A DNA stretch of 64,000 bases from Fictibacillus marinisediminis (GTDB lineage: Bacteria > Bacillota > Bacilli > Bacillales > Fictibacillaceae), in contig NZ_JAIWJX010000002.1 of the NCBI RefSeq assembly GCF_023149135.1, positions 2,666,001-2,730,000 of the forward strand, in the 5' to 3' direction. The position numbers were made by a program, and so were the translations under genes. This document shows positions 40,543 to 56,017 of this stretch, piece after piece. Below the pieces are notes generated by a model. The model was not told the DNA's origin. It saw only the letters and a list, made by a program, of their open reading frames with translations, and ran no database searches. How positions within the stretch are numbered: position 1 is the first letter of the stretch; each line of letters opens with the position of its first letter.

Positions 40543-41268
40543 TTAATAGGAGGGCTTTTCTTTCTGCCCCTGCTGCCGGCTTCGATAAAATTCATGAAAC
40601 AGTTTCATTAAGGCTCGCTTTTCAATCCTTGAGACATAGCTTCTCGAGATTCCCAGCATCTTCGCGATCTCCCGCTGGGTTTTTTCCTTTTGAAGATCAA
40701 GTCCGAACCGGCCGACAATGACTTCCTTCTCCCGATCATCCAAAACATGAATGTAATCATAGATTTTCTTTTTTTGCATTTTGAGCTGAATGGCATCAAC
40801 GACATCCTCAGTTTCTGCTTTCAGGACATCAATGAGTGTAATTTCGTTCCCTTCCTTATCGGTACCGATCGGATCATGAAGAGAAACATCTTTCTTGGTC
40901 TTCTTTAACGCACGCAAATGCATAAGAATCTCATTTTCAATACATCGCGCAGCGTACGTCGCAAGCTTCGTTCCCTTCCCTCTCGAATAGCTTTCTATTG
41001 CCTTGATCAGCCCAATGGTTCCGATTGAAATCAGATCTTCGGTATCTTCACCTGTATTTTCAAATTTCTTTACTATATGTGCAACCAAACGCAAGTTGTG
41101 TTCGATCAGCTTGCTTCTGGCCTCCTGATCTCCCTCGGCCATCAGCTTTAAGTATTCTTTCTCCTCATTTTCGGAGAGGGGTTGCGGAAACGCATTGTTT
41201 TTTACATACGAAACAAACAGCATTACCTCTTTGAAAAAGTACGCTAACACGGCTAGCAACCCGGACAT
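40543..41268 (-). CDS. sigK: RNA polymerase sporulation sigma factor SigK
   Basis: A 241-residue late mother-cell sigma factor. The hydrophobic pro-sequence ([25 protein letters not shown]) removed by SpoIVFB is present; region 2 contains [37 protein letters not shown] and region 4 [24 protein letters not shown]. The gene is in one piece: no skin-type element interrupts it at the ENEI codons, where AATGA is the recombination core in B. subtilis. A second, partial sigK lies at 56707-56943. Confidence 0.97.
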
Positions 41269-41828: not shown

Positions 41829-41900
41829 CAATAAGCTATCTGGCCCAATACAAAAAGACGCCACCTTAATAAAGAAGGCGCCCAATTGCAGAAGATTAAA
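41829..41900 (-). repeat. Island repeat copy A (terminator type)
   Basis: Contains GGCCC, a minus-strand hairpin (GGCGCCTTCTT / AAGGTGGCGTC) followed by TTTTTG, then CCCAATTG. Located 60 bases downstream of the VOC gene stop. Acts as its terminator. Confidence 0.7.
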
Positions 41901-41960
41901 AATGCTCTTTAGTTATTGTGCTAACGCTTAGCGGAGAGAAAGAAATGGATGTACGGTGAC

Positions 41961-42317
41961 TCAGCCCTCTAGATCGTAGGCAGTGGGATGTCGTGGCTGG
42001 TAAATTGAGAGATCAGCGCCGCTGGGAAGCTTGATGGAGATAAGCCGGCCCCAACGCTGCTCGCTGATTGGCTCCGAGATCGTGATGCCCTTAGCGGTTA
42101 GTTCTGTGATCGTCTTCTCGATATCGTCGCACATCAAGTAAAACTCGTGTTTATCAAGCCCGTCTGTAGGATGCACGGCGATTTCGGCAGGAGGCAGTTT
42201 GAAGACTAGCCAACCATCGCCGGCGTCAACCCCAGCTAACCCGAGTACATCGCGTATGAATACCCGGTCTGCCTCAGCGTTGGTACTGTAGAGAATAATG
42301 TGTGCTGCATTGATCAT
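41961..42317 (-). CDS. VOC-family (glyoxalase/bleomycin-resistance fold) protein
   Basis: A 118-residue protein with paired beta-alpha-beta-beta-beta modules: INAAHIILYSTNAEADRVFIRDVLGL, then GWLVFKLPPAEIAVHP and HEFYLMCDDIEKTITELTAKGI, ending in GADLSIYQPRHP. Possible metal ligands are His6 and Glu near 73; catalytic role unknown. Its codon use is richer in G and C at third positions than its neighbours, suggesting separate origin. Its ATG overlaps the stop of a regulator remnant (ATGA). Confidence 0.82.
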   Translation of the reverse strand: MINAAHIILYSTNAEADRVFIRDVLGLAGVDAGDGWLVFKLPPAEIAVHPTDGLDKHEFYLMCDDIEKTITELTAKGITISEPISEQRWGRLISIKLPSGADLSIYQPRHPTAYDLEG

Positions 42318-42400
42318 GATTCTTCTTCACTCTCCTGTTCATCGACTGTTTCGTTTATCGCTTTGCTCTTCTTGAGCAAGTCTAATACTTTATTTTTGGT
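42314..42400 (-). pseudogene. C-terminal remnant of a gene coupled to the VOC gene
   Basis: Twenty-eight open codons, KVLDLLKKSKAINETVDEQ and an acidic tail, ending in a TGA that overlaps the VOC ATG. The highly charged tail and the stop-start coupling suggest the last codons of a lost upstream gene, possibly a regulator. Just upstream the stretch AATAAAGTxTTAGAC occurs twice in tandem, marking a local duplication or junction. Confidence 0.4.
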
Positions 42401-42492
42401 CTAACACTTTATTTTCTTTCAACATTATTGTTACCGAGACTGATCCATTTCGAATATAAATATTCGTTTCTGCTTGGGATTTTCCCTCCATT

Positions 42493-42556
42493 AAATGGCC
42501 CTTATATGCAGAAAGAGCACTCTCCTTACTAAAGGAAAGTGCCCGATTGCCGAAAA
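42493..42556 (-). repeat. Island repeat copy B (terminator type)
   Basis: GGCCC, minus-strand hairpin GCACTTTCCTT/AAGGAGAGTGC with CTTTC tail, GCCCGATTG outer arm. Confidence 0.75.
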
Positions 42557-42583
42557 AGCCGTCTGAAGAGACGGCTTTTTAAT
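42553..42583. terminator. Strong bidirectional hairpin
   Basis: AAAAAGCCGTCT-GAAG-AGACGGCTTTTT, directly beside repeat copy B; probably terminates the PspC gene or transcription from either side. Confidence 0.8.
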
Positions 42584-42608
42584 TTATTTAGAATATAAAC
42601 TCCATCTC

Positions 42609-42699
42609 TTTACTAAGCAATCCTGCCCTTTAGCTGATGAAGAAAAGAGCATCCCAGTATTGGCAACCATATCTTCAACTAACGCACCCGATCGTTGAA
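42609..42699 (-). repeat. Island repeat copy C (compound)
   Basis: A decayed long copy (CAATCCTGCCC...AAGAGCATCCC) followed by a short copy with TTCAAC (42674-42679) and GTTGAA (42694-42699) arms around ACGCACCCGATC. It ends three bases before the PspC gene stop. Confidence 0.7.
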
Positions 42700-42701
42700 A
42701 A

Positions 42702-42884
42702 TCATAATGAAGGAGGACTGTCATGAAGTGTATTGGCAAGAATGATATATATCAGCAAGTTTGCAGGTAAAAGGATAAATATAAGTCTTACCAGAAAAGA
42801 GGTTACACCTAAATATTCAGCTATCCCCCCGCAAACACCAGATATCGATTTATCTGTGAATGATTTTCTTAATTTCTTATTCAA
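42702..42884 (-). CDS. PspC-domain small membrane protein
   Basis: A 60-residue protein: [23 protein letters not shown], then one membrane helix ([21 protein letters not shown]). The GVCGGIAxYxG motif is diagnostic of PspC domains, which in other bacteria take part in phage-shock/envelope stress control. TAGGAGGATTTAATTTGA precedes the ATG. Complete; function here unknown. Confidence 0.9.
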
Positions 42885-42925
42885 ATTAAATCCTCCTAAT
42901 GCTATATAGCAGAGATTGATTGCTA

Positions 42926-42953
42926 TTTTCTACAATCGCACCCGATTGTGGAA
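42926..42953. repeat. Island repeat copy D (short type)
   Basis: ACAATCG (42932-42938) and CGATTGT (42943-42949) around CACC; only the outer arms are present. Confidence 0.7.
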
Positions 42954-43079
42954 AAAATTAATACTGTAATCTGGCATAAATTAAAATGAAAAGCAATACT
43001 TTTACGGGGTTATTTACTAATATAAGCGAAATCGAATCATTGAGATTTTAAGTGTTTTAAACATAATTGTATATAAAAA

Positions 43080-43118
43080 AAGAAGCTTACTTTCATGGAT
43101 AAGCCCCCTTTAATCTCA
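43080..43118 (-). repeat. Island repeat copy E (terminator type)
   Basis: Minus-strand GGCTTATCC/GTAAGCTTC hairpin with T7 tail, 20 bases after the stop of the PAS-receptor gene. Confidence 0.65.
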
Positions 43119-43137
43119 TGATACTTATCAGGATGTG

Positions 43138-43959
43138 TTATTGCATCTTCTCAAATTCTGCTATCGTCTGTTCAAATGTCTGTTTTGTATCCTCGACCAA
43201 TTTTTGGAGGTCTTTCGTTATTTGATTTACGTTTGAAAGCTCCTTTGTAATGTTTTCAATATTAGAATTAACTTCCTTAATAGCTTCGTCTGCATTGCCT
43301 GATAATTTACGAACTTCTTGGGCTACAACATTAAAACCTCTCCCATGCTCCCCGGCTCGTGCTGCCTCTATGGCGGCATTCAATGCTAATAAATTCGTCT
43401 GAGCAGAAATATTTTTTATCAACTTGGATGTTTCATCAATTAAATGTATTTGCTTTTCCAATGAATGGACAGCTTTCATTTTCTTAGAGGAATTCCCCAT
43501 TACTACATTCACTAATTCATTGGGCATTTTTTTTAATTTATCAATTATTTCTAATGTTATATTTTCACGTTTCGTAATATCTGTTGCTATTTTTAAGACG
43601 GCATGTACTTTTCCGTCCTCGTTTAAGATTGGAATATATGTAGCCTCTAGCCATATTAATTTGCCTTGCTTGTTCACTCTTTCTATCTTTTCTTGAAACT
43701 TTTTGCCCTTGCGGAGATTATTCCATAATTCTATATATTCAGTGCTAATTCTTAATTCTTGAGTGCAAAATTCCTGATGATCCATACCAATTAGTTCACT
43801 CGCATTGTAACCAATGGCTTGTGAAAAATTATCATTTACCCAGATCACTTTTCTATCCAGGTTGAATTCAATCATGGCTAAGTTTTTTTCGAGCGAAGAT
43901 AAGATGGATATGGGATCTAAAACCTGTGTGCTTCTATTAATATCTGATTGAATAATCAT
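43138..43959 (-). CDS. Soluble PAS-MCP chemoreceptor-like protein
   Basis: A 273-residue protein. PAS domain at about 25-135 ([27 protein letters not shown], later [26 protein letters not shown]), then a short chemoreceptor signalling hairpin with [21 protein letters not shown] and [13 protein letters not shown], the CheA/CheW-binding tip. No membrane helix or HAMP, and the coiled coil is short, similar in plan to soluble receptors such as B. subtilis YfmS. It probably senses a cytosolic redox or small-molecule cue. ATG 43959 has GGGAGTTTAT upstream. Confidence 0.88.
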
Positions 43960-44289
43960 ATAAACTCCCTTTTCCTTTAATATACTAAACTCCAACGTTA
44001 GTCTAACTCTTACTTTATCGGTCACATTCCGAAAATATCAAATTGGATTTCTTTTTACCAAGTTAACTTAAGAGTGCCAAACAGATTATAGACATCACAA
44101 TGAAGAGTTGAGTAATTCTTTTGCAACTCGTAAGGACCTTATTCAACAATCATGGCCCGATTGTGGAATAAGAAGTGATTTCCATACCATTAATTATTAA
44201 TAATTTTAGCTATTTAATTTTTTTAGAAAGCCGTATAATTTTCCTATATCTAAACGTCTTATTAATGTAAAGACTTTAGGAGGGGAAAT
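43960..44289. other. Intergenic stretch with one island repeat
   Basis: Between divergent PAS-MCP and ECF genes. It holds repeat copy F; both promoters should lie here but I see no clear -35/-10 pair that I would defend. No gene. Confidence 0.5.
44142..44171. repeat. Island repeat copy F (short type)
   Basis: TTCAACAATC (44142-44151) and GATTGTGGAA (44159-44168) around ATGGCCC; nine of ten arm positions pair. Confidence 0.8.
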
Positions 44290-45228
44290 ATGAAGCAATC
44301 TCTTAAAATTGAAAATGATATTGTGAATGAAACTCGAAGGTTAAAAAATGAATTTGAAGAAATCGTTTCATTTTATTCATCAGACCTGTGGAATTATTGT
44401 AAATATGTTACTGGGTCCGCTTGGGATGGTGAAGATCTTTATCAAGATACCATGATCAAATCGTTCGGTTTGTTACCGCACCGCTGGAGTGAGATTACGG
44501 ATAAAAAATACTACTTATTCCGAATGGCAACCAATACATGGCTCGATCAATGCAGAAAGCGAAAACGGGAAGTGGGAACATTAGAAGAGAGCATTGAGCC
44601 AATCCAAGATTTTTCAGATACGCTTGTTTTAGAAGAAATTTTAATATCCTTGGAGTCTAATTTGACCCCTAAACAAACAGCAGCTTTTCTCTTGCTCGAT
44701 ATTTTTCAATTTTCCGCGGAAGAAGTAGCCGGAATAGTTCATAGTACACCAGGCGGAGTATATGCTTCTGTACAGCGAGCCAGAAGAAACCTTGCTTCTT
44801 TAGATATGTCAACCTCTAAAAGAAAAGTAGGTACGAAATTGGCCAACGCTACTATTCAAGCTTATTTAGCTGCCTTTAATTCTGGGGATTTACAAGGGAT
44901 GTTACAGTTATTCAGTGATCAAGCACAAAATGAAGCGTTCTCTGGTTTCCAAGAATTCTCGAAAGAAGAAATGCTAAAAGGATCTCTCAGATTTGGTTTG
45001 CCTGGTCATGCAGCCCAAGAAACTATTCTATGGGGTAAACCGGTTATTCTTGTTTTAGCTAATGGTGAAAATGGACCTGAAATTCATGACATCCAAATGC
45101 AAGAAGTTGAAAATGATAAAATAGTAAGTCATAAAAGTTATTTCTTTAGAAAAGAATTTATTTTAGCAGCAGCTGAAGAGCTAGAAATAAAGGCACAGTT
45201 AGTAAAACCACCAGTAGACTGGAGCTAA
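44290..45228 (+). CDS. ECF sigma factor with SnoaL-like C-terminal domain
   Basis: A 312-residue protein. Sigma region 2 at about 22-90 (DLWNYCKYVTGSAWDGEDLYQDTMIKSFG, FRMATNTWLDQCRKRKRE) and region 4 at about 120-180 (LTPKQTAAFLLLDIFQFSAEEVAGIVHSTPGGVYASVQRARRNL), followed by a SnoaL/NTF2-like domain (ATIQAYLAAFNSGDLQGMLQLFSD). This plan is that of ECF41/ECF56-type sigma factors, where the tail replaces an anti-sigma factor and tunes activity. No anti-sigma gene is next to it. TAGGAGGGGAAAT precedes the ATG. Confidence 0.85.
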   Translation: MKQSLKIENDIVNETRRLKNEFEEIVSFYSSDLWNYCKYVTGSAWDGEDLYQDTMIKSFGLLPHRWSEITDKKYYLFRMATNTWLDQCRKRKREVGTLEESIEPIQDFSDTLVLEEILISLESNLTPKQTAAFLLLDIFQFSAEEVAGIVHSTPGGVYASVQRARRNLASLDMSTSKRKVGTKLANATIQAYLAAFNSGDLQGMLQLFSDQAQNEAFSGFQEFSKEEMLKGSLRFGLPGHAAQETILWGKPVILVLANGENGPEIHDIQMQEVENDKIVSHKSYFFRKEFILAAAEELEIKAQLVKPPVDWS

Positions 45229-45234
45229 GTTTTT

Positions 45235-45262
45235 AGGGATAACATTTGTTATCCCTTTTTTA
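45235..45262 (+). terminator. Terminator after the ECF sigma gene
   Basis: AGGGATAAC-ATTT-GTTATCCCT followed by TTTTTATTT. Confidence 0.9.
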
Positions 45263-45290
45263 TTTATTGCTGTTATTTACATTTTCAGAA

Positions 45291-45338
45291 AAGCATACTT
45301 CTCCTTCTAGAAAAAATGCACCTGATTGTGGAATAAAA
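45291..45338 (-). repeat. Island repeat copy G (terminator type)
   Basis: Minus-strand GTGCATTTTTTCT/AGAAGGAGAAGTATGC hairpin with CTTTTC tail; outer arm GATTGTGGAATAA. Confidence 0.65.
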
Positions 45339-45475
45339 ACTACTACCGATTTGGTTCAAATGATTTAATCAAATGGTCTCCCAATTTAAATCTTTTACCG
45401 TAACATATATTAATTAGTTGTTTGTAAATTCTCATGTATGGGTATTGGTAAAAATTGAAAGAAGGAGGTTTTTCT

Positions 45476-45676
45476 TTGAGGCATGGAATCTATTTAGTAA
45501 TAGCATATTTCATAATTTGTTTATTTTTTATTACATCCTTTCCATTTAAAGACTGGCTATTTTTTACTTCTCTCATTCTTATTTTAGTCTTCGTGGTCGG
45601 TTATTTATCGTTTCATATAAGAACATGGCGGATCTCGTTTCCAATTACGGCTGTACTGGTCACTATATTCCTGTAA
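45476..45676 (+). CDS. Small membrane protein, unknown
   Basis: A 66-residue protein with about three membrane helices (GIYLVIAYFIICLFFITSF, WLFFTSLILILVFVVGYLSF, ISFPITAVLVTIFL). TTG 45476 has AAGGAGG seven bases upstream, the best site in the area; an earlier in-frame TTG lies at 45455. The C-terminus ends inside a helix, so the gene could be truncated. Not recognised. Confidence 0.6.
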   Translation: MRHGIYLVIAYFIICLFFITSFPFKDWLFFTSLILILVFVVGYLSFHIRTWRISFPITAVLVTIFL

Positions 45677-45799
45677 CAGTTCCACTTCTATTAAGATCCC
45701 TACATCACTTGTGTTTAACATGGGCGTTATATACTTTTTCATCGGCGTCGGAAAGCGACTTCCTAAAAATGATAATTAGAAACAAAAGGAGCAGCCTCT

Positions 45800-45856
45800 A
45801 CTTTAATAAGAAAGTGTACTTCTCCTTTTTTAAGAAACGCACCCGTTTGTGGAAGA
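45800..45856 (-). repeat. Island repeat copy H (terminator type)
   Basis: Minus-strand GTGCGTTTCTT/AAGGAGAAGTACAC hairpin with CTTTCTTATT tail, outer arm GCACCCGTTTGTGG. It lies 76 bases after the MFS gene stop. Confidence 0.7.
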
Positions 45857-45931
45857 CGGGAAAACCACTTCCAGAATATAACCTTATTGTAGAGATACCG
45901 ATTGTATTTTGTACAACACATTCCCTTGTAG

Positions 45932-47263
45932 TTATAATTTCGCATGCTTTGATGATAGTTGGTTAGATCCTATTAATGATAAAATAATCGACAAGATTAA
46001 AATAACAACAAAAAAGGTGAAAGCATAACTGAAATGAGAGAACGATTCTAAAATGCGGCTTGATATGGCCGGTCCAAATGACATGCCCAAAAAGTTGATA
46101 AGATTATATATTCCTAAACCCATCGCAATTTTGTCCTTTTCTATCGTTTGTGGAATTTCAATATTGATTGCCACAGTCATCATTGTAAAAGCAATATAAA
46201 TGGAGAAAACGCCAAGAGTTGCGAATATTGATTGTCTTACACCGACAGTCGCCAATATCAGGAATCCGATAAGTTCTATGATCGCGGAATATCCAATAAG
46301 TTGTTTACTGCTTAAGACATGCAGGCTCTTTTTTGCGATGAAACTTATCAAAAAGGCAAAGATTGAGATCACACCCAAAATAAAACCTGAGCCAATAGCT
46401 GAATGATGAAAACGCTGCTCGGATAATAATGGGAATAAAAACACAATGCCCACCATTGCTGCGTTATTAACAAAGCTTATCACAAGCAATCTGTTAAAAG
46501 CGAAATGTCCAAATACAGATAGATCGACAAATAGAGCCAAATCTTTGCGGTTACCATGAGCCATTAAACCAACTACTGACAGAGCAGTTATGATAAGGAG
46601 ATAGCCATTCATTTTAACACCCAGAATAAACGACACAACGAAAATCAATAAATAAAATAACCCGATGAAGTCAAAAGGACGGGTAACTTTTTTCCCGTTG
46701 GCATACCCGGAAGGCATAACCACAAATAACCCGATGAGCGTCAGAACGACCAACAACATCAATAAAAACAAAGAATGCCAGCCCCATAAGAAAGTAAACG
46801 TGCCGCCAATCAAAAATCCTATTCCTGAACCTAATGATAAACATCCACTAATTAACGTTAATGCCAGGTTTCTTTTAGAAGCTGTCATATATTGATTGGC
46901 GATAATCATGGACAAGGCAATGAAAGCACTGCCTCCAGCAGATTGAATAATCCTTGCAATGATCACAAAGATATACTGATTGGTTATGGAACCAATAATG
47001 GAACCACACACGAACATACACACACCGAAGATTAATAAGGTCTTAAGTTGGAAGTATGACGCCAATTTACTGTAAGTAATAGAACCGAAGGCAATGACCA
47101 ATGTATATAAAATCACGACCCAACTAATCATAGAAGTTGTTACCCCTAGTTCTCCTTTCATATCGACAAGTGCCACATTAAACAAAATTGAATTCATCAC
47201 ACCCGATAAAACGATGAAACACAAGGTTAAGATAAGACCATTTTCTTTACTTTTCATCTTCAT
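45932..47263 (-). CDS. MFS drug efflux transporter, 14-helix DHA2 type
   Basis: A 443-residue major facilitator protein related to Tet(K)/Tet(L)-type and other DHA2 proton antiporters. First helices LILTLCFIVLSGVMNSILFNVAL and SMISWVVILYTLVIAFGSI; motif A is weak, and the motif C-type GSGIGFLIGGTFTFLWGW is present near residue 148. Probably exports a drug or metabolite; substrate unknown. It lies behind an ArsR-type gene with a perfect palindrome between them, so expression is likely substrate- or ligand-induced. GGAGGAGAAAAAAAT precedes the ATG. Confidence 0.87.
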   Translation of the reverse strand: MKMKSKENGLILTLCFIVLSGVMNSILFNVALVDMKGELGVTTSMISWVVILYTLVIAFGSITYSKLASYFQLKTLLIFGVCMFVCGSIIGSITNQYIFVIIARIIQSAGGSAFIALSMIIANQYMTASKRNLALTLISGCLSLGSGIGFLIGGTFTFLWGWHSLFLLMLLVVLTLIGLFVVMPSGYANGKKVTRPFDFIGLFYLLIFVVSFILGVKMNGYLLIITALSVVGLMAHGNRKDLALFVDLSVFGHFAFNRLLVISFVNNAAMVGIVFLFPLLSEQRFHHSAIGSGFILGVISIFAFLISFIAKKSLHVLSSKQLIGYSAIIELIGFLILATVGVRQSIFATLGVFSIYIAFTMMTVAINIEIPQTIEKDKIAMGLGIYNLINFLGMSFGPAISSRILESFSHFSYAFTFFVVILILSIILSLIGSNQLSSKHAKL

Positions 47264-47283
47264 ATTTTTTTCTCCTCCTCATA

Positions 47284-47321
47284 TTATTCTAAAGTCATAA
47301 AACTTTATGACTTTAGAATAA
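47284..47321 (-). promoter_or_regulatory. Perfect palindrome before the MFS gene (likely ArsR-type operator)
   Basis: Arms of 18 bases (TTATTCTAAAGTCATAAA and its complement) with a two-base centre. There is no T-run after it on the minus strand, so it is not a good terminator. AGTTTTATGxxxTTA from its centre recurs at the arsR start (47629-47615), which supports a shared protein-binding site. Confidence 0.75.
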
Positions 47322-47335
47322 AAAAAGTGGCTACA

Positions 47336-47623
47336 TCAGAGCGTAGCCAAAAACCCCGGTAAATAATAATCAAATATCTCTTTGTTTAGCGTGATATACT
47401 TTGTCACACCTTCACGTTCAATTAGCACTAATTGTGCGTCCGATAAAATTTTCAAATGATAAGAACCATTTGACTTACTGATTCCTAAACTCCTTCCAAT
47501 ATCCGAACACATAGGGCGATTGTTCTCGTGAAATAGTAAACGAATCATCTGTATTCTTTTCTCATCCGCTAATGCATTAAATACCTTAATGCGTTGTTGA
47601 TCATCCAATTGTTTTAATACCAT
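47336..47623 (-). CDS. ArsR-family transcriptional regulator
   Basis: A 95-residue winged-helix protein: RIKVFNALADEKRIQMIRLL, then CSDIGRSLGISKSNGSYHLKILSDAQLVLIEREGV as recognition helix and wing. The CxC metal motif of ArsR/SmtB sensors is absent (one Cys only), so it may sense a non-metal ligand. It has no Shine-Dalgarno; the -10 hexamer lies six bases before ATG, so the message is likely leaderless. Probably controls itself and the MFS gene behind it. Confidence 0.87.
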   Translation of the reverse strand: MVLKQLDDQQRIKVFNALADEKRIQMIRLLFHENNRPMCSDIGRSLGISKSNGSYHLKILSDAQLVLIEREGVTKYITLNKEIFDYYLPGFLATL

Positions 47624-47629
47624 AAAACT

Positions 47630-47657
47630 ATTATATAAATTAGCTCAAATTTGTCAA
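47630..47657 (-). promoter_or_regulatory. Consensus SigA promoter of arsR-type gene
   Basis: Minus strand: -35 TTGACA (47657-47652), 16-base spacer, -10 TATAAT (47635-47630). Predicted start point falls on the ATG itself. Confidence 0.85.
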
Positions 47658-47757
47658 ACCATCTTGCTGGAATTCAAATCTACTTGTGTATTGCTGCTTT
47701 CACTATTGTCTATCAAAGATTACCGTTACATTGTAACAACATGGGTTTACTCCTTTA

Positions 47758-47835
47758 TCTGGCCCGTTTGTTCAAAAAAAGAGAGCTATTATCAGCCCTC
47801 TCGATCTTCAACTAACGCACCCGATTGTTGAATAT
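47758..47835 (-). repeat. Island repeat copy I (terminator type, variant core)
   Basis: GGCCCGTTTGTTC, minus-strand GAGAGGGC/AGCTCTC hairpin with T7 tail, then TTCAAC (47807-47812) and GTTGAA (47827-47832) around TAACGCACCCGATT. It ends six bases before the Amj remnant's stop. Confidence 0.75.
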
Positions 47836-47840
47836 ACTTT

Positions 47841-48601
47841 TTATATCCATTTAGCAAACCCAGCAACATAATATGCAGCAGGTATAAAGATAAGTTGTGC
47901 TACTAATGTACCTATAAATTTTGAACATATCATTGTTAACGAGTAACTTTTTAGAAAAACATACTTACTTTCTTTCTTAACCACTCTGTCAGCTAGAACT
48001 GATGCTTTTGGATCAATAAACAATGTTAAAAGGATGGTTGCAATACCGTTAATAATGCCAGATGACATTAAAGCTGCTTGTGCATAATCTTTTGGTACCA
48101 ACATCGAAGCATAAATAGAGGAAAGTACTCCTATTGTAAAAACCGCAGAGATTACCACATTTACAAAAAATAAACGTTTTGGAATGGTACTCAAAGTAAT
48201 TCCGTCTAGATATGAAATCTTTGGAATTCTAATACACTTTATAAGTTTTTTAAACCTAGATAAATTTAAATGCTTAACTAGCAGTTTGATTATTGAGCCT
48301 CTTTCATTTTGAAAGCTGAACAATAGCTCTTGAGAAGATGGTGATGAATGTAGGAAATAACATTATTCCAATGATAACGCCTAAAGATGTTACCCCAATA
48401 AGTACACGATATTGTCCTTCAATAAGGGATAATTTATTTGAATCTGGTGCCTCCGCAATGAGCTTTGCAGTTAAAGGTTGCTGGATCATCGTAGAAAATC
48501 TCGATACAATAACCATAGTACTGAACAATGAATGTTTCAATAACTGTTATTATTAAAAGAAAAATAGATATTATAATTACTTTACCAGTGAGTAGGTCCA
48601 T
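47841..48601 (-). pseudogene. Amj-like lipid II flippase, broken
   Basis: Three frame pieces of one gene. ATG 48601 (AGGAAG upstream) gives MDLLTGKVIIISIFLLIITV and IET. A frame change and apparent loss of about 20 residues lead into LFSTMVIVSRFSTMIQQPL (frame ending at 48304). A second frameshift near 48310 leads to NERGSIIKLLVKHLNLSRFK and five further helices ending at 47841. The motif VSRFSTMIQQPLTAKL and overall plan recall Amj (YdaH), the alternate lipid II flippase; I am fairly but not fully sure of the family. Not expected to be functional. Confidence 0.6.
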
Positions 48602-48671
48602 TTTTTAATCTTCCTTCACATAGAATAATACCAATTATTTCAAATCATTCTCTTTAACACAAGCCATAATA

Positions 48672-48719
48672 ACAAAAAGAGCTTACCTTATTACAGATAA
48701 GCACCCTTTAGTTGAATAA
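48672..48719 (-). repeat. Island repeat copy J (terminator type)
   Basis: Minus-strand GTGCTTATC/GGTAAGCTC hairpin with TTTTTG tail; outer arm TTTAGTTGAATAA overlaps the last codons of the Nudix gene. Confidence 0.75.
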
Positions 48720-49103
48720 CGCTTGAATTTTTATAGCGACTTCTTTTGGTTTAACATCAATAGATGATAACTGGTTTATTTCAATCCACAATGGTAGATA
48801 AGTTCCTCGCTTTCTATTAAAATCTGTGTACTCTTCACCATTCCCTGTACCAAAATTTCCAGTTATTATTTCAGCAAGAAAAAAGTATTGAGTGCCGTTA
48901 AATTCAACTTCTGCGATACACTCATTTATATTAACCGTTACTCCTAATTCCTCTTGAGCTTCTCTTTTGGCTGCTTCTTGAGGTGTCTCTCCATCTTCTA
49001 TTCCACCACCAGGAAATACATAATAAACTGAATCCCCTCTAACCCTCTTAATCAGACCTACTTTTTGATTTTCAACTAAAACTACTGAACCTCTATTTCT
49101 CAT
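48708..49103 (-). CDS. Nudix hydrolase
   Basis: A 131-residue Nudix protein. The box GGGIEDGETPQEAAKREAQEELGV (G-x5-E-x7-RE-x2-EE-x-G) is complete near residues 37-60. Substrate unknown; MutT-like or ADP-sugar-type are possible. ATG 49103 has GGGGGTAA upstream; an in-frame ATG lies at 49115. The stop codon lies inside repeat copy J. Confidence 0.88.
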   Translation of the reverse strand: MRNRGSVVLVENQKVGLIKRVRGDSVYYVFPGGGIEDGETPQEAAKREAQEELGVTVNINECIAEVEFNGTQYFFLAEIITGNFGTGNGEEYTDFNRKRGTYLPLWIEINQLSSIDVKPKEVAIKIQALFN

Positions 49104-49128
49104 ATTTACCCCCATAGCTGAAATACAT

Positions 49129-49206
49129 TGTTCAACAATCCTGCCCTTAAATCAATAAAAAAGCCACTTCTCCTTCTTGAAGAAATACGCCCTTTAGTTG
49201 AAGATC
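49129..49206 (-). repeat. Island repeat copy K (full length)
   Basis: The most complete copy: TTCAACAATCCTGCCC at one end, minus-strand GCGTATTTCTTC/GAAGGAGAAGTGGC hairpin with TTTTTT tail, and CGCCCTTTAGTTGAAG at the other end. It overlaps the last codons of the neighbouring gene. Confidence 0.8.
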
Positions 49207-49562
49207 GTTATATTACGTTTGTTTTTTATTTCCCTCATATTCAATTCAAGAAGAATGTCTTTCGGTACACAGCCTTCTAAACCTTCTTTTTTTATCAAGT
49301 CATACCCCGTACAGCTATCATCAACAACTGAGACAATGTCTCCTTTACTTACGCTTATTTGTGCACAAGAAACATCGGTCTTAGCAGTAAAATGCCCCGT
49401 TTCATTTTGTTGAATATATTCATTTTTAACGTATAGTAGTTCATTGGTTTCTAGCTGTTTACATAAAGTGAAGTTATCATTTTTTTCAACTAGCGCAAGA
49501 TCATATAAAGGATAAGTAATAGAACCAATCATCATAGGTTCAGCACTAAAATCTTCCAACAC
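49194..49562 (-). CDS. Protein of unknown function, possibly 5'-truncated
   Basis: A 122-residue frame from GTG 49562 (LEDFSAEPMMIGSITYPLYD), ending NMREIKNKRNITIFN. The reading frame stays open and protein-like upstream to 49673 (TGQLNAFIIHRSFAEDTYSN) but without a start codon; an ATG at 49674 is in another frame and would need a frameshift. So the true N-terminus may be longer and damaged. No known motif recognised. Confidence 0.5.
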   Translation of the reverse strand: MLEDFSAEPMMIGSITYPLYDLALVEKNDNFTLCKQLETNELLYVKNEYIQQNETGHFTAKTDVSCAQISVSKGDIVSVVDDSCTGYDLIKKEGLEGCVPKDILLELNMREIKNKRNITIFN

Positions 49563-49743
49563 TTCACAATTTAGAAAATGATCAATATATGCATTCGAAT
49601 ATGTATCTTCAGCAAATGATCTATGAATGATAAATGCATTTAATTGTCCAGTTGTTTTGATGGCGTTTCCCCATTATTTTAATCCATTTTTTTACTAGTT
49701 GATAGTCTTACAACTATTTCCTCACATAACTATTTGAAAATTT

Positions 49744-49793
49744 TAAAAAAGCGCTGATCCTTATTTCAGGAAAGCGCCCTTTAATTGTATAAG
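49744..49793 (-). repeat. Island repeat copy L (terminator type)
   Basis: Minus-strand GCGCTTTCCT/AGGATCAGCGC hairpin followed by TTTTTT: a textbook terminator, 64 bases after the GNAT gene. Confidence 0.8.
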
Positions 49794-49856
49794 AATGGAC
49801 TATATTTTATTGAAATTATGGTCAACAAACCTCTTCATTTTATCTGTATAAGAACG

Positions 49857-50411
49857 CTAAGTTTCCAGGTTAGTAATTTTGCCGAAAAGTAATGCATCAT
49901 AATACTTATCCTCTATAAAATAGTGGTCTTTTAAACGTCCTTCTAACTCATACCTGTTCTTTTCAAGTATCCGTGCAGAACCAATATTGGCATCCACTAC
50001 CATAGCATGGAGTCTATGAAGATTTAGTGATTTAAAAGCAAAATCACTCATCAATGCAACAATCTCTGTGCCATACCCCTTACCCCAATGATGTTTATGC
50101 AACACATAACCAATTTCAGCTTTGTTTGCTCCTTGGTCAAAATTGAAAATCATGGCTGTCCCTATAATTGCTTGAGTTGATTTTTCAACAATGGAGGAAT
50201 ATAAATGAGTACCTGCCGACTCACGTTTTAACATTATTTCAATGTACTGACGAGTTTCCTCCAAAGTATTCATTAAATTCCAGCCAATAAATCGTGAAAC
50301 TTCTTGATCTGACGCATAATGATGTATCTCTTGAACATCCTCAATCCTAAGTGCTTTGAAGTAGATTTTTTCACCCTCCAATGAATGAAATAAAACAGCC
50401 TGCTTCTCCAT
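49857..50411 (-). CDS. GNAT acetyltransferase, RimJ/RimL-like
   Basis: A 184-residue acetyltransferase. GEKIYFKALRIEDVQEIHHYASD at the N-terminus, acetyl-CoA loop region GYVLHKHHWGKGYGTEIVALM near residue 105, and LHRLHAMVVDANIGSARILEKNRYELEGRLKDHYF, the usual end of RimJ/RimL-type enzymes. Likely acetylates a protein N-terminus or small amine. AGAGGAGGTTAAA precedes the ATG. Confidence 0.9.
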   Translation of the reverse strand: MEKQAVLFHSLEGEKIYFKALRIEDVQEIHHYASDQEVSRFIGWNLMNTLEETRQYIEIMLKRESAGTHLYSSIVEKSTQAIIGTAMIFNFDQGANKAEIGYVLHKHHWGKGYGTEIVALMSDFAFKSLNLHRLHAMVVDANIGSARILEKNRYELEGRLKDHYFIEDKYYDALLFGKITNLET

Positions 50412-50549
50412 TTTAACCTCCTCTAATTTCGATTTGTTAAATGAACCTCAGATGGCAGCGAAAATGTCCCTAATTAAGGTTAATATCATCGCACTCATCT
50501 TAGTACATCCTTTCAAATAATTTTCCATATATATGTTATAACTGTTTCC

Positions 50550-50620
50550 TCGGCAAACTGGCCTTAAAATGAAAAAAGCTCTAATCCTTGTTCCAGGAAA
50601 GCACCCTATTGCTAAATAAA
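50550..50620 (-). repeat. Island repeat copy M (terminator type)
   Basis: GGCCTTAAAAT, minus-strand GTGCTTTCCT/AGGATTAGAGC hairpin with TTTTTTC tail; outer arm decayed. It lies immediately downstream of the coding remnant at 50623. Confidence 0.7.
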
Positions 50621-50622
50621 GA

Positions 50623-50805
50623 TTAGTTATTAATGAGGATGCTTACAGAATTAAAACTATATCCACCGCTCCCTTTATGCATAATAGAAAAGAATGGTTC
50701 GTATCGGTGTCCCTCAATATCTTCAAACGATAGGATAAATTTATAGTCACCTTCGGCCATATTAGTAATGGCGTCCGATGTGTGAAATAGATCGACTTCA
50801 TTTTA
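50623..50805 (-). pseudogene. 3' remnant of an unidentified gene
   Basis: Sixty protein-like codons without a start: NEVDLFHTSDAITNMAEGDY, then KFILSFEDIEGHRYEPFFSI, ending at TAA 50623. A stop lies directly before them. Looks like the surviving C-terminus of a beta-rich protein. Not identified. Confidence 0.4.
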
Positions 50806-50862
50806 GAAAAAATAACGATCTACATAGATAATGATTAAACTCACAACCTTTTATCAGAAAGG

Positions 50863-51119
50863 ATGATTAACATTATATTTTCTTATGAAAAAATCACTTT
50901 ATCCGGAGATAACTCTGCTGAAGTATTTTTACACAGGACTATTGATAGACGTTTTTTGCAGCCATTCCTGATCTTCACTGGTCAGCAGAATTTAAAGAAT
51001 TCGATAAAATACATACACAAATGCAACACCTGCAAAACTCTTTAAATTTTCATTTGTTTTCAGGTGATACGGATAAATTGATTGAAGCTATTATTGAGTT
51101 GGTTAAGCGGTACGAATAA
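50863..51119 (+). pseudogene. Frameshifted small gene, unidentified
   Basis: ATG 50863 (MINIIFSYEKITLSGDNSAE) continues in another frame as FAAIPDLHWSAEFKEFDKIH and ends HLFSGDTDKLIEAIIELVKR at TAA 51117. One frameshift near 50955 reconciles the two. About 85 residues in total; function not recognised. Confidence 0.45.
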
Positions 51120-51251
51120 TAGTTAGTGAACATTATGGGTCAAATACGAAGAATCGTTATTTCTTTTTTAAATTTTGGCTCTGTAAAATTAAATGTCGAT
51201 TTTCATATAGTAATTAGGGGAACCTGCATTTGTCGAGGTTCTCCTTTTTTG

Positions 51252-51277
51252 TTCAACTAACGCCCCCGTTAGCTCAA
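51252..51277. repeat. Island repeat copy N (short type)
   Basis: TTCAACTAACG and CGTTAG arms around CCCC: CTAACG (51257-51262) pairs perfectly with CGTTAG (51267-51272). It lies 22 bases after the VOC gene stop. Confidence 0.8.
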
Positions 51278-51298
51278 TAGCAAATGAATTACAACTCG

Positions 51299-51646
51299 TT
51301 ATTTCTCCCAAAGCTCGACCAGTCGACCTTCAGGATCTTCAATCCAAATAAACTTTCCAAATTCACTAATCTCTTTTTTCTTTGCAAGAGGTACACCAAT
51401 ATGTTCAAGATGCTTAATAGTCTCGTTTAGATTATGTACTTGGAAATTTAACATCACTTGTTGTTCTGTTGGAAAATAACTGTCATTCTCGGTAAAGAAA
51501 GAAAAGATAGTCTCATTTCCTAATTGGGGTTTTATCACAGTCCCATTCCAATTTTCCACTTCAATCTTCAACACTTCACTGTACCATTTTTTTACAACTT
51601 CAAGATTCTTAGTTCTCCAAAATATTCCTCCGAAACCTTTTATCAT
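51299..51646 (-). CDS. VOC-family protein (glyoxalase-like)
   Basis: A 115-residue vicinal-oxygen-chelate protein: GFGGIFWRTKNLEVVKKWYSEVL, then QVMLNFQVHNLNETIKHLEHIG and FIWIEDPEGRLVELWEK. The last stretch carries the Glu ligand typical of the fold's second metal strand. Substrate unknown. AGGAGTTAGATACG precedes the ATG. Unlike the VOC gene at 41961, its base composition fits its AT-rich surroundings. Confidence 0.88.
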   Translation of the reverse strand: MIKGFGGIFWRTKNLEVVKKWYSEVLKIEVENWNGTVIKPQLGNETIFSFFTENDSYFPTEQQVMLNFQVHNLNETIKHLEHIGVPLAKKKEISEFGKFIWIEDPEGRLVELWEK

Positions 51647-51726
51647 CGTATCTAACTCCTGTCTGTCATCAAATTTTTAGCTGTGCGATTACATTAGATA
51701 TTCGAGATTTAAATTTAAGTTCCTTT

Positions 51727-51756
51727 TTCAACTATACTGCCCGATAGTTAAATAAG
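51727..51756. repeat. Island repeat copy O (short type)
   Basis: TTTCAACTAT and ATAGTTAAA arms around ACTGCCCG. It lies three bases after the transposase remnant's stop. Confidence 0.7.
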
Positions 51757-51758
51757 CA

Positions 51759-52455
51759 CTATAGAGCGCATTTTGATAAACGTAAACTATCGTAAGTATC
51801 TGTCATTTCAAAAACAAAAGATGATAATAGGAATTCCTTAATATTATGTTTTGTGCTTTCATTGCTACGGCTATCCACAAACAAGAACCAAGCAAGGTAA
51901 TTGTCGAGATACTTTGTTGCTACACCTTTAAATCGGTTTATCCATTGTTCTGTTTATCATCGTTCGATTTAATTCTGTAATACTCGATGCCTTTTTCTTT
52001 CGCGTATGTTTTATAGGCTCTCCAAGCATCTGTCACAAGCACATTTTCAGGTGTTAACTTTGAACCAATCATTTCTTCAACTTTGGTTTTAACAATACGC
52101 CCCATACAAACAACTTTGGAAACAGTTGCCTTTGTGCGATCTCTGGCAACAAGAACGCAAACTTGCTCGTGGTAATTTCTCTGTGTTTGGAGCTGCCACC
52201 ACGTTTACGAGGTTTTCTCCCAGTAATGCCACGCTGCCCTTTTTGAGAGTATAAGAAATAGGTCTCATCTACCTCAACAATACCCTCAAATTGTTCAAAA
52301 TCGATTTGTTTAAGAGCGTTCAAGAGGTTGTGTCTCCAATAAAAAAGCGTAACCCAAGTAACCCCTACGATTTCTTCCGATTTTCGTAGAGAATAGCCTT
52401 TGAACATCCAATCAACAAATGTAATCCATTCGTTTACTTTACAAGTGCAGAACAA
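51759..52455 (-). pseudogene. IS1595-family transposase remnant
   Basis: Frameshifted pieces of one transposase. The 5' piece has VNEWITFVDWMFKGYSLRKS and the catalytic strand FEGIVEVDETYFLYSQKG; the middle piece has SKLTPENVLVTDAWRAYKTY with the second Asp; the end has RFKGVATKYLDNYLAWFLFV. The N-terminal zinc ribbon is missing and at least two frameshifts are needed. Terminal inverted repeats were not found close by, so this is a dead insertion-sequence relic. Confidence 0.8.
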
Positions 52456-52751
52456 AACGGTATTTGTTTTCTATGTTTATTGATTTGTAAGGATTTTTAA
52501 AATTTAACAGCTGAAATTACAGTTAAAATAACAACAAAAAACACCGAATAATGAGAACTATTCGCTGTACACTTTTGCTAATACGAAAGATCATACACAT
52601 CTCTTTTGTAATTATAGATATCGTATTTAAGGTTTAATTTTCCACCGCTAATTTTTACAATTTTTTCAAAAGCCATTTTATGTGGTTTTTATCTTCTGGA
52701 TAATTAAAGTAAATGACCTTTTTTGTATTCTGCTATTCTCCATTATTAAAG

Positions 52752-53264
52752 TTATTTTACCTGAATAGACCTGGCTTTAATTACATAAGGAAGGAGCTGT
52801 TCTACAGCATGTTTTTGACTCTCATACACTTCAAGTATTTCAAGTTTTTGCTTTAATATATCCACTTGTAATACTTCTTCTAGCGATAAATCAAACATAA
52901 ATAAGTTTTCTTTTACTATAGAGTTCATAATTTCAGAAAGAGCTTTATGTTCAGGGTGGCCGTATTCACCTTGTAAATTGTGCGTAACAATTTTGCGATA
53001 GGGGCGCTCGTGGATTATCCGTTGTAACTCCTGTTCTAATTTCGGCCGGTTAACGTGTTCTGTCCATGCATCCTTAAAACTCCAGATTTCATATTCGGCT
53101 TCTACCTTTTTCATAGCTGCTTTAAATTCTTGTGAACGAGTATCATTATTTCCTTCTGAGATACAAATCACTTTCCAACCTTTTTCCTGTATCAATTCAT
53201 CCCCGCCAAAAATAATTTCATCATCTGGGTGGGCTACAACCATTAGTTTATTAATTTCCGCCAT
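52752..53264 (-). CDS. PIG-L family N-deacetylase
   Basis: A 170-residue zinc deacetylase of the LmbE/PIG-L fold. AHPDDE motif at residues 11-16 and the HPEH motif in GEYGHPEHKALSEIM near 122 provide the metal ligands. Family members remove acetyl groups from GlcNAc-linked compounds (BshB in bacillithiol synthesis, MshB). It follows an Eis-like acetyltransferase by 12 bases in one operon, with AAGAGGAGGTAATT before the ATG. Confidence 0.88.
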   Translation of the reverse strand: MAEINKLMVVAHPDDEIIFGGDELIQEKGWKVICISEGNNDTRSQEFKAAMKKVEAEYEIWSFKDAWTEHVNRPKLEQELQRIIHERPYRKIVTHNLQGEYGHPEHKALSEIMNSIVKENLFMFDLSLEEVLQVDILKQKLEILEVYESQKHAVEQLLPYVIKARSIQVK

Positions 53265-53276
53265 AATTACCTCCTC

Positions 53277-54377
53277 TTAAAAGTGATCGCTTCTCCAAAA
53301 AATATAAGGACGATGTATAAAGGTGTCTCTTAATATCGATTTGTCTTTTGTCGTCATTTCTTTTGTGTCTTTTCCCTGTAAAAAAAACGTTAAAAAGTCC
53401 GAATGTGACAATCTGGTCCATACTTCATTCTTATAAAAACCATCTATATAATGATCTTCTGTTTTAATATATTCTAATCCGTTATCCTTCTTTATTAGGT
53501 CGTTTACTTGGTTGGTGAATGAAGATTTGGATATAATTTTCCACATGGATTCATGATGTTCAAAAGGATATAACGTTTGATGGCTAAGATGAGTAAACAA
53601 TTCATGATGCGGAGGGAGAAATAAGATCACTTTATTTTCTTCCTGTGAAAGTGCGGCCTGGTACAAGCGAAACACGGTATTGGAGCAGCTCTGATGACAT
53701 AATTCAATAATATCAATGGTCGCATCTGCTTTTTGAAAACGGATATACCCTGTCACTTGGTTGTGGTGTTTCGCTACTAAAAAATGATCATGTTCTTTCA
53801 TACTGTTTAGCTGCTGGGTCCAATATTCCTTTGTCCGTTCCATCGGCCCGTTCAGCTGCTGGGAATAGTTTTGATAGATTTCCATTATCTCTGGCAAATC
53901 ACTATGCTGTACGGGTGTAATTTTCATTCCATCTTCAAGAGCCTGCCCTTCACATTTATCATAAAGGTAGTGATAATTTTCAGGGATTGAGTGCCAGCCC
54001 GCTTTTTCATAAAAGGAGGGAATACCGGTATATAAAAGCGATAAATCAAACGCCTCCTCTTCCATCCAAGAGAGGGCTTTATCCAATAAGCGGTGGCCTA
54101 ATTTCTGTCCACGGTTAGCCGGCATAGTAGCAACATTCCCAATACCAGCTACATTAAATGTTAGAGGAGGAACATTGATACAAAAAGGAAAAACTTGAAG
54201 TACCGAACTAATCTTTCCATTGACTATGGCAACCCATGTTGTCTTTAGGCGGTAAGCAGGATTATTCTTAATTCGTTCTTCAAAAAAAGCTCTATCTTTA
54301 TTGAATACCTTTTCCAACAGGACAAATACATCTTCTAATTCACATTTGGTTTTTATACTACGGAATTCTACAGTCAT
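53277..54377 (-). CDS. Eis-like GNAT acetyltransferase
   Basis: A 366-residue protein with a tandem GNAT plan: an N-terminal GNAT domain with VAGIGNVATMPANRGQKLGHRLLDKAL (acetyl-CoA loop) and YTGIPSFYEKAGWHSIP, then a second GNAT-like half (ITPVQHSDLPEIMEIYQNYSQQ) and a C-terminal part. Close in plan to Eis/PF13527 enzymes, some of which acetylate aminoglycosides at several amines. ATG 54377 has AAGGAGGGTGAGT upstream. First gene of a two-gene operon with the PIG-L deacetylase. Confidence 0.85.
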   Translation of the reverse strand: MTVEFRSIKTKCELEDVFVLLEKVFNKDRAFFEERIKNNPAYRLKTTWVAIVNGKISSVLQVFPFCINVPPLTFNVAGIGNVATMPANRGQKLGHRLLDKALSWMEEEAFDLSLLYTGIPSFYEKAGWHSIPENYHYLYDKCEGQALEDGMKITPVQHSDLPEIMEIYQNYSQQLNGPMERTKEYWTQQLNSMKEHDHFLVAKHHNQVTGYIRFQKADATIDIIELCHQSCSNTVFRLYQAALSQEENKVILFLPPHHELFTHLSHQTLYPFEHHESMWKIISKSSFTNQVNDLIKKDNGLEYIKTEDHYIDGFYKNEVWTRLSHSDFLTFFLQGKDTKEMTTKDKSILRDTFIHRPYIFWRSDHF

Positions 54378-54606
54378 ACTCACCCTCCTTACTGATTTAT
54401 TCCCAAATTCCAAAAACGAAAACACACCGGAAGATAACATTCTATTGATAACAGAACAGAAAAAGGAGGAAAAAAATATTCCTCCGAAAATGTGTATGGA
54501 GTATAGAAAGACTGGGTCCTCCTATTAATGGGGCAAACGTACAAGAGTTCTAGATAATCTCTTTTGCATTATGCGGGCATCGATAGGCTTTGGATCATAC
54601 CAAGAT
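54378..54606. other. Gap upstream of the Eis-like gene
   Basis: Holds the promoter region of the Eis-like/PIG-L operon; a -35/-10 pair was not assigned. No gene. Confidence 0.5.
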
Positions 54607-54639
54607 AAAACCAGTGTCCGTTACCGGCACTGGTTTTTT
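54607..54639. terminator. Hairpin without an obvious gene
   Basis: AAAACCAGTG/CACTGGTTTT with an inner CCG/CGG pairing and T6 on the plus strand. No intact plus-strand gene precedes it, so it may be left over from a deleted gene. Confidence 0.7.
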
Positions 54640-54705
54640 AAATATCTTATCAGTTGATCGATTTTGCTCTTAATCGAAGGATATTTTGCTATTCTTGTAA
54701 AACCT

Positions 54706-54776
54706 TTTCAACAATCTGGCCCTAAAATGGAAATATGCGCTAATCCTTATTTCATGTAAGCGCCCGTTTCATGAAG
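54706..54776 (-). repeat. Island repeat copy P (full length)
   Basis: TTTCAACAATCTGGCCC at one end, minus-strand GCGCTTACATG/AAGGATTAGCGC hairpin (T-run decayed), CGCCCGTTTCATGAAG at the other. It ends nine bases before the stop of the unknown frame at 54785. Confidence 0.78.
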
Positions 54777-54784
54777 ATCTTTAG

Positions 54785-55915: not shown

Positions 55916-56017
55916 TAGTGATGACGCTCACACCAACAGCACAATTTTTTAGTAATAAGTAGCTTGTCCATACCAACGTCTCTCTATTTGCATTTAATAG
56001 AGTAGGAGGTGATTTTA

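Follow-up and report, generated by a model that had tools for sequence, protein, structure and literature searches.

A putative mobile gene cassette array with terminator-bearing att-like repeats and a linked Xer-like integrase in Fictibacillus marinisediminis

Results

The repeat array of the window

The present study concerns a gene island of Fictibacillus marinisediminis, located in a 64,000-nt stretch of DNA (the window; C2:2,666,001-2,730,000 of a 4.57-Mb genome in four contigs), and the short repeat that accompanies its genes. Genes of the VOC, PspC, PAS-MCP, MFS, Amj, Nudix and GNAT families lie in the island, most of them on the minus strand (Table 1). Sixteen copies of the repeat (A-H and J-Q) were observed between positions 41,831 and 54,775, every one on the minus strand, bearing out an earlier note, made from the sequence alone, that described about sixteen oriented copies in 13 kb. 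A core-site score of at least 14.5 was reached at ten places, all minus, compared with 0.2 per array in five shuffles; the place at 49,122 is probably a chance match. The same note saw no copies in the preceding 41 kb, and no such score occurs in the first 38 kb, although the covariance model R2 (see below) at E<=0.5 gave two weak matches beyond the array, at 33,548 (22.6 bits) and 38,125 (20.3 bits). For 11 of the 16 listed minus-strand open reading frames (ORFs), a copy is located at -15 to +80 nt relative to the stop codon, compared with a mean of 1.7 and a maximum of 7 for those 16 ends in 5,000 random placements of 16 positions. The claim that nearly every minus-strand gene is followed by a copy is thus correct for 11 ORFs but not for five. 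PIG-L and its GNAT partner, formerly named as the sole exception, do lack a nearby copy, but so do the ArsR-type helix-turn-helix (HTH) gene, the transposase remnant and the upstream Amj fragment. No Rfam family matched the window at its gathering score, and a known Rfam family was rejected as the identity of the repeat.

On the minus strand, a full copy reads R'' (TTCAACAATC)-GGGYGC-L''-terminator hairpin and T run-L'-GGGC(CA/AG)-R' (GATTGTTGAA). In other words, two core sites, each with 10-nt arms and a 6-nt spacer starting with GGG, flank an intrinsic terminator, and a short copy is one core. The inner terminator formerly described in long copies was found, but short copies are single cores, and full copies two cores, rather than bare outer arms. 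The outer arms had also been reported to change together. This covariation is strong in the model-aligned set, in which 14 of 17 pairs changed on both sides and none of 500 shuffles reaches that level, in an alignment fitted to the structure. In the 77 of 125 sites with both cores placed (the second core of the other 48 was not found by score), it is weak: R''/R' pairing was reached by 65 of 2,000 shuffles and pairing of the inner 4 nt by 15. An attC-like L''/L' pairing was rejected, as 217 of 2,000 shuffles reach it. Folded as DNA, the copy at L002:10400 gave a z of -5.4, and four other copies gave -0.5 to -3.0. The integron attC boxes are RYYYAAC and GTTRRRY (PMC3053210), and a fit of the repeat ends to them had been proposed; this fit is poor, with YYYAAC in 25 and GTTRRR in 15 of the 77 two-core sites, and the attC consensus boxes were rejected on these counts.

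Distribution of the repeat

Two covariance models were used, R1 built from six copies and R2 from 39 matches in the 16 sources searched. In the own genome, R1 at E<=0.01 gave 13 matches, all within three clusters of a single orientation each: 1.167-1.170 Mb (plus), 2.708-2.721 Mb (minus, the window array) and 3.095-3.099 Mb (minus). R2 at E<=0.001 added one lone match at 3.90 Mb (plus), leaving 13 of 14 strong matches clustered. R2 at E<=0.001 gave 94 matches in 27 clusters in six chromosomes whose coordinates start near dnaA. The check whether copies keep to one strand across genomes was affirmative, since all 19 multi-copy clusters (86 of the 94 matches) lie on one strand each and eight copies stand alone. 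With the terminus assumed at the midpoint, 24 of the 27 clusters (86 of 94 sites) are co-directional with the replication fork, the exceptions being two clusters just beyond the midpoint of one genome (G032) and the lone own-genome match. This bias is distinguishable from 50% (P = 5e-5), though not from a gene bias assumed at 75% (P = 0.12); the co-orientation with replication is suggestive only.

In a genome of another genus of the family (G004), 125 R2 matches were found at E<=0.01 among 150 candidates scored. Site positions were counted in eight of its stretches (L096-L103, 71 sites). Of these, 33 lie at most 60 nt past a same-strand stop codon, compared with a random mean of 4.3 and a maximum of 10 in 500 runs (observed from -3 to 60 nt, random from 0 to 60 nt), and four precede an opposite-strand stop. 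Intervals of less than 2.5 kb have a median of 906 nt; 30 of 52 hold one ORF of at least 60 amino acids, five hold none and 17 more than one, with 62 ORFs on the strand of the site and 9 on the opposite strand. At L096:2480-7347, eight consecutive ORFs alternate with sites. Among ten L096 ORFs, five have Pfam matches (Nudix twice, DUF1569, DUF3885 and DUF2716) and the other five have none. R2 at E<=0.01 matched in all 34 family genomes; weak whole-genome matches were not counted as arrays because R2 also picks up other terminators. A plasmid search with the repeat returned ten records, from Lysinibacillus, Cytobacillus, Peribacillus, Priestia and Pseudalkalibacillus and including two labelled Stenotrophomonas; none of the ten is labelled B. 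cereus.

Movement of gene units

The Amj gene of the window has a second copy in the 3.1-Mb array of the own genome (L001), 96.8% identical through ...TTCAACAATCGGG and differing from the next base. Similarly, the identity of VOC2 with its copy in another strain of the same species (G023, 532 kb compared) runs through ...GAGCTAACGGG and is lost from the next base. A search for such junctions compared 105 stretches (1.6 Mb) all against all and yielded 568 alignments. The 42 matched site pairs at alignment ends were reduced to 26 by an identity filter and repeat removal, and 23 were kept after two reverse views and one pair without GGG were dropped; the VOC2 junction is missing from this set, probably owing to the low score of its site. 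A previous round had placed 60 of 388 alignment ends close to a half-site, many of them by chance. The junction filter looked only at positions at least 14 nt away, and nearer positions are therefore informative. In the 10 pairs in which identity ends at the site, it was 0.92 in the arm, 1.00 at GGG, 0.87 at +1 to +3 and 0.68 at +4 to +13; in the 13 in which it starts there, the values were 0.72, 0.97, 0.90 and 0.95; and in 1,002 random site pairs they were 0.75, 0.99, 0.59 and 0.64. Identity above the random level thus both starts and stops within the 6-nt spacer GGGNNN. The core is of the R''-L'' (TGC) type at 18 of the 23 junctions, several of which share a cassette and hence are not independent, of the CCA/CAG type at four and mixed at one.

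A whole unit of about 0.77 kb was found in both strains (L001:14341-15119 and contig C1 of G023, L255:8129-8905), with 98.6% identity. The identity begins GGGTGCGTTAGC and ends TTAAACTAACGGG, and the DNA outside differs apart from the shared arm consensus. Both ends lie at GGG, indicating a unit of the form [terminator, R', gene, next R'', GGG]. In the own genome this unit adjoins the unit of the integrase described below (98.2% identical), which lies on a separate contig, C6, in G023; at least one of the two has therefore moved. The 532 kb of G023 compared cover 95% of the window's upstream flank and 0% of positions 41,830-51,250. The earlier note had asked whether gene-repeat units differ as blocks between strains, and block movement was observed both within the genome and between the two strains.

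The linked integrase

Twelve matches to PF00589 were found in the own genome. One is an intact integrase gene in the 3.1-Mb array (C2:3,100,311-3,101,153; L001:15309-16157), about 380 kb outside the window, and a broken one lies at 1,158,033-1,158,483 in the 1.16-Mb array (L002). The unlinked tyrosine recombinase whose co-occurrence had been proposed as a check is thus present in both other arrays of the genome, once intact and once broken.

A core site (score of at least 14) lies within 1.5 kb of the gene at 34 of 48 integrase loci, compared with 4 of 30 other tyrosine recombinase loci. Set apart from the 48 were L019 (= L034), the fragments L025, L028, L029, L030, L040, L042 and L043, the remote L031, and L113/L114 (37-38% identical); the near-identical loci L140/L141 and L137/L138 were kept. 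R2 at E<=0.1 matched at 14 of the 29 order-sample integrase loci and at none of the 30 controls. At the level of genomes, at least three sites (E<=1e-4) occur in 14 of 23 genomes with a whole or partial clade A integrase and in 43 of 275 without one (Fisher 4e-6), the counts per genome being lower bounds taken from the best 17 candidates.

The integrases comprise clade A, at least 69% identical to the own integrase (29 loci), and a second group of 54-66% identity (19 loci). In clade A the sites lie mostly on the integrase strand at 21 loci, mostly opposite at none and are absent at eight (42 sites same, 2 opposite), whereas in the second group they lie mostly opposite at 13, mostly on the same strand at none and are absent at six (2 same, 29 opposite). 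Site strand thus depends on the integrase group (21:0 vs 0:13 loci, Fisher 1.1e-9), and the R2 matches at order loci obey it, save one at L144. In a quick tree with XerC/XerD-type controls, clade A has a support of 98 in the Shimodaira-Hasegawa-like approximate likelihood ratio test and orientation appears as one change, with a long-branch warning among the controls; the second group is an identity class, not an established clade. At four clade A loci (L019, L021, L023 and L032) sites flank the integrase on both sides, and the integrase therefore looks like a cassette itself.

The protein of 282-290 amino acids scores 194-202 bits with the XerA, XerD and XerC models, all under their cut-offs (XerA_Arch 202 bits, cut-off 220; XerD 197, cut-off 329.6), and less with the IntI models (TIGR02249 93.9 bits, cut-off 265; PRK15417 58.5, cut-off 435); no cut-off among Xer or integron models is reached. 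Used as 48 aligned rows, the family gave best E-values of 5e-62 to 5e-68 with Xer models and of 4e-31 and 2e-21 with integron models. By these comparisons, the integrase is Xer-like and not IntI. Invariant or nearly invariant columns across 47 relatives include R141 (the first Arg, kept in 90% of rows or more), K165, H231, R234, H257 and Y266, which we assign as the presumed catalytic residues. An AlphaFold2 model (mean predicted local distance difference test score 78.7, predicted template modelling score 0.56) has XerA 5hxy as its nearest fold in the PDB (TM about 0.5), with IntI4 2a3v at rank 12. An I2-like domain is described as an adaptation of IntI (PMC4792948).

The closest named locus is that of Fictibacillus sp. 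FJAT-27399 (97% identical). A protein search found 982 relatives at E<=1e-40, the best 120 of which include Bacillus cereus, mycoides, wiedmannii and toyonensis, Lysinibacillus, Peribacillus, Virgibacillus and Halobacillus. At E<=1e-45 the integrase occurs in 8 of the 34 genomes of its own family, with best matches of 1.7e-33 or weaker in 11 of the others, and in 74 of 299 genomes of an even sample of the order, 63 at no less than 54% identity and 11 at 34-44%. PADLOC, run on ten proteins, gave two weak matches, both to one model.

Other features of the window and related loci

The Amj gene of the array (47841-48540) lies in two frames and looks broken, and its L001 copy is likewise a fragment. 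A sigma-70 region 2/region 4 gene recurs in the own genome and in relatives of the genus as several diverged copies, whole or incomplete (about 83-98% identity over 200-800 nt), namely at window positions 40543-41268 and 56702-56942, at L084, L086, L088-L091 and L095, and at L001:12990-13266. The ORF at 56009-56533 is lysine/serine-rich, with internal repeats at the DNA level. Outside the own genome, arrays with a second-group integrase opposite most sites are present at L110 (a Sporosarcina psychrophila plasmid) and L112 (a plasmid labelled Arthrobacter citreus), and group II intron reverse transcriptase genes occur in both array regions.

Table 1. Repeat copies, moved units and genes of the array in window coordinates.
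Feature	Position	Strand	Basis
Att-like copy A, 67 nt past VOC gene	41831..41893	-	R1 38 bits, R2 49 bits
Att-like copy B, full length, in R1 seed	42488..42554	-	R1 68 bits
Att-like copy C, 2 nt past PspC; R''-GGGTGC-L'' core 42674-42699, L'-R'-like core downstream	42616..42699	-	core score 18.0, R2 21 bits
Copy D, single core	42928..42953	-	core score 17.5
Copy E, degenerate, 19 nt past PAS-MCP gene	43061..43118	-	R2 22.7 bits
Copy F, single core, R''-GGGCCA-R' fusion	44143..44168	-	sequence; R2 18 bits
Copy G	45275..45333	-	R2 22 bits
Copy H, 77 nt past MFS gene	45795..45854	-	R2 46.5 bits
Copy J, both cores and terminator, 8 nt past Amj remnant; junction after GGG	47752..47832	-	core score 18.0
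Copy K, overlapping Nudix gene end	48656..48716	-	R2 47 bits
Copy L, full length, overlapping end of 49194 ORF	49131..49202	-	R2 61 bits
Copy M, 67 nt past GNAT gene	49728..49789	-	R2 53 bits
Copy N, full length	50552..50616	-	R2 61 bits
Copy O, single core, 21 nt past VOC2; junction with strain G023	51252..51277	-	core score; alignment
Copy P, single core	51727..51752	-	core score 17.75
Copy Q, full length	54707..54775	-	R1 77 bits
Amj-gene unit, second copy in own array L001, flank switch after GGG	47820..48096	-	96.8% identity
VOC2 unit, second copy in strain G023 with other surroundings, flank switch after GGG	51265..51682	-	96.2% identity
Putative cassette gene, VOC/glyoxalase	41961..42317	-	Pfam, barely above cut-off
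Putative cassette gene, PspC	42702..42884	-	Pfam
Putative cassette gene, PAS-MCP	43138..44025	-	Pfam
Sigma-70 r2/r4 gene, opposed to array, between copies F and G	44290..45228	+	Pfam
Putative cassette gene, MFS transporter, with ArsR-type HTH 47336-47623	45932..47263	-	Pfam
Amj remnant	47841..48323	-	Pfam
Putative cassette gene, Nudix	48708..49115	-	Pfam
Putative cassette ORF without Pfam match	49194..49562	-	Pfam scan
Putative cassette gene, GNAT	49857..50411	-	Pfam
Putative cassette gene, VOC2	51299..51646	-	Pfam, under cut-off

Discussion

In the present study, the island of the window appears very likely to be a mobile gene cassette array, assembled by site-specific recombination at an att-like repeat through a dedicated Xer-type integrase. 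At the level of sequence, the clustering of the sites, their locked orientation within clusters, gene-wise spacing, linkage to the integrase, movement of units and breakpoints at GGG were each observed. The cassette-like array suggested by the earlier note is thereby strengthened, through block movement, the linked tyrosine recombinase and the clusters confined to one strand. We infer that the integrase recombines the sites and acts in trans on the window array, and the chemistry of strand exchange outlined below is likewise deduced.

Herein, we propose the following mechanism. First, the integrase encoded in another array of the own genome would bind the 10-nt arms and exchange strands at the GGG side of the spacer, mostly at the R''-L'' core. 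Second, the mobile unit would be [rest of spacer, terminator, R', gene, next R'', GGG], and each gene would carry an upstream terminator that insulates it, on arrival, from its upstream neighbour. Third, insertion of unit beside unit would leave all sites in the same orientation, and the array would grow. The spacers GGGTGC and GGGCCA have mainly GGG in common, and the exchange of a single strand with resolution through replication, which is described for integrons (PMC4792948), would therefore fit better than two matched cuts.

Several observations weigh against this interpretation. No site was found by score at 14 of the 48 integrase loci; many genomes, G004 and G003 among them, have arrays without the integrase, and just 14 of the 57 genomes having at least three sites carry a clade A integrase. 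One R2 match at L144 lies on the wrong strand, and 5 of the 71 sites of G004 lie inside called ORFs. A folded strand as substrate would call for arm pairing, which is weak in the independent 77-site set. The core-like site found 3' of the own integrase gene, at about 15,138-15,164 of L001, has no mark setting it apart as an attI. Finally, the junctions were collected at sites by design, and therefore show the position of breaks within the repeat and not the frequency of breaks that avoid it.

Three other explanations were considered. Homologous (RecA-type) recombination between dispersed terminator repeats might swap genes without the repeat being an att site. Most copies do contain terminators, some arrays lie in genomes without the integrase, and around the core (-12 to +13 nt, GGG aside) the identity of randomly paired sites is already 0.59-0.75. 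However, the excess identity ends within +3 in one junction class and starts at GGG in the other, both ends of the 0.77-kb unit are exact at GGG, and neither integrase linkage nor a group-specific orientation rule is predicted, so that we regard this explanation as improbable. Somewhat less probable still is the action of the host XerC/XerD on the sites, as in the pdif modules of Acinetobacter plasmids, with the linked integrase as a passenger cassette. The 10-6-10 geometry of the core resembles dif-like sites, and G004 has arrays with only two recombinases found, of about 30% identity, but the linkage of the integrase family to the sites, the positive association at genome level and the prediction of site orientation by integrase group argue otherwise. 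A portable terminator or a miniature inverted-repeat transposable element (MITE) inserted behind genes by an unlinked transposase, which the earlier note had thought simpler, would suit the palindromic arms, the terminator content, the location 3' of genes and the eight lone copies among 94, but is very improbable given that gene and repeat move together, that 19 of 19 multi-copy clusters keep to one strand and that a tyrosine recombinase is linked; neither form accounts for the GGG breakpoints or the integrase linkage.

The proposed cassette array shares with integrons its dense arrays of one orientation, about one gene per site, a palindromic site, a tyrosine recombinase, unit movement and the occurrence of integrase-less arrays (clusters of attC sites lacking integron integrases, CALIN). 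In contrast, the integrase resembles Xer proteins and does not reach the IntI cut-off (93.9 vs 265 bits), the sites contain an intrinsic terminator, and integrase genes of clade A are located within the array and have the same strand as the sites. The terminator would travel with the downstream gene, because the 5' core holds 18 of the 23 junctions. Breakpoints lie at a GGG triplet, compared with AAC/GTT in integrons; in IntI systems, the crossover occurs at a conserved triplet AAC, giving microhomology (PMC4792948). The system thus seems to work in an integron-like manner but fails the IntI and attC-box tests, and is therefore not classed as an integron.

XerCD-dif (pdif) modules are genes bounded by short two-arm cores with a 6-nt spacer. 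The present units are alike in this geometry and differ in their dedicated linked integrase and their terminator-bearing sites of one orientation, and few XerC/XerD-type loci have a site (4/30 control loci). MITEs are scattered in both orientations, whereas 86 of the 94 copies lie in one-strand clusters and the gene moves with the repeat. The bcr5 repeats of the B. cereus group were reportedly tied to strain-specific genes and large integron-like gene clusters (Kristoffersen et al. 2011). The repeat of the present study would be similar in these respects, and relatives of its integrase are present in B. cereus, B. mycoides, B. wiedmannii and B. toyonensis. The bcr5 work is not known to have covered the recombinase, the crossover point or the unit boundaries described here. 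The mobility of BCR elements has been tied to a TTTAT motif, and the portion of that text consulted does not mention a resemblance to integrons (PMC6542083). In the literature searched, in which subscription journals are thinly covered, no title or abstract opening describes this integrase or its sites.

Phage tail-region recombinases are a possible source of the cassette integrase. Relatives of 45-60% identity occur in viral contigs, and at two of the three loci examined (L164 and L169) recombinases 59-60% identical lie amid phage baseplate and tail genes. Unlike the cassette integrases, these relatives have no site of at least 14.5 at 67 of 77 viral-contig loci; at L196, the two sites beside a 57% relative are convincing and lie opposite to it, the arrangement of the second integrase group. 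Beside the L169 recombinase lie two tandem tail-like genes with blocks 76-79% identical, a likeness to tail-fibre switching systems. De novo searches for direct repeats at three viral loci revealed nothing att-like, and relatives in seven phage records are at most 36% identical to the integrase.

Taken jointly, we consider it somewhat probable that Bacillaceae and their relatives carry an independently evolved integron, in which att sites with terminators are recombined at GGG by a non-IntI, Xer-like integrase, some outside relatives of which lie among phage tail genes. The integrase would itself be a cassette in one clade, arrays would reach about 125 sites in a single genome, and such an integrase is encoded by 63 of the 299 sampled genomes of the order. 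In the IntegronFinder 2.0 data set, one complete integron of Firmicutes was found, in Limnochorda pilosa, together with a few integrase-less clusters (PMC9024848). The system described here would thus be integron-like in a bacterial group where integrons are thought almost absent. If this is true, a common group of soil bacteria owns a cassette-shuffling system that searches for IntI and attC would miss, and both the enzyme moving these genes and the purpose of the cassettes become testable. Moreover, it would represent a second, convergent case of an Xer-like recombinase becoming a gene-capture machine.

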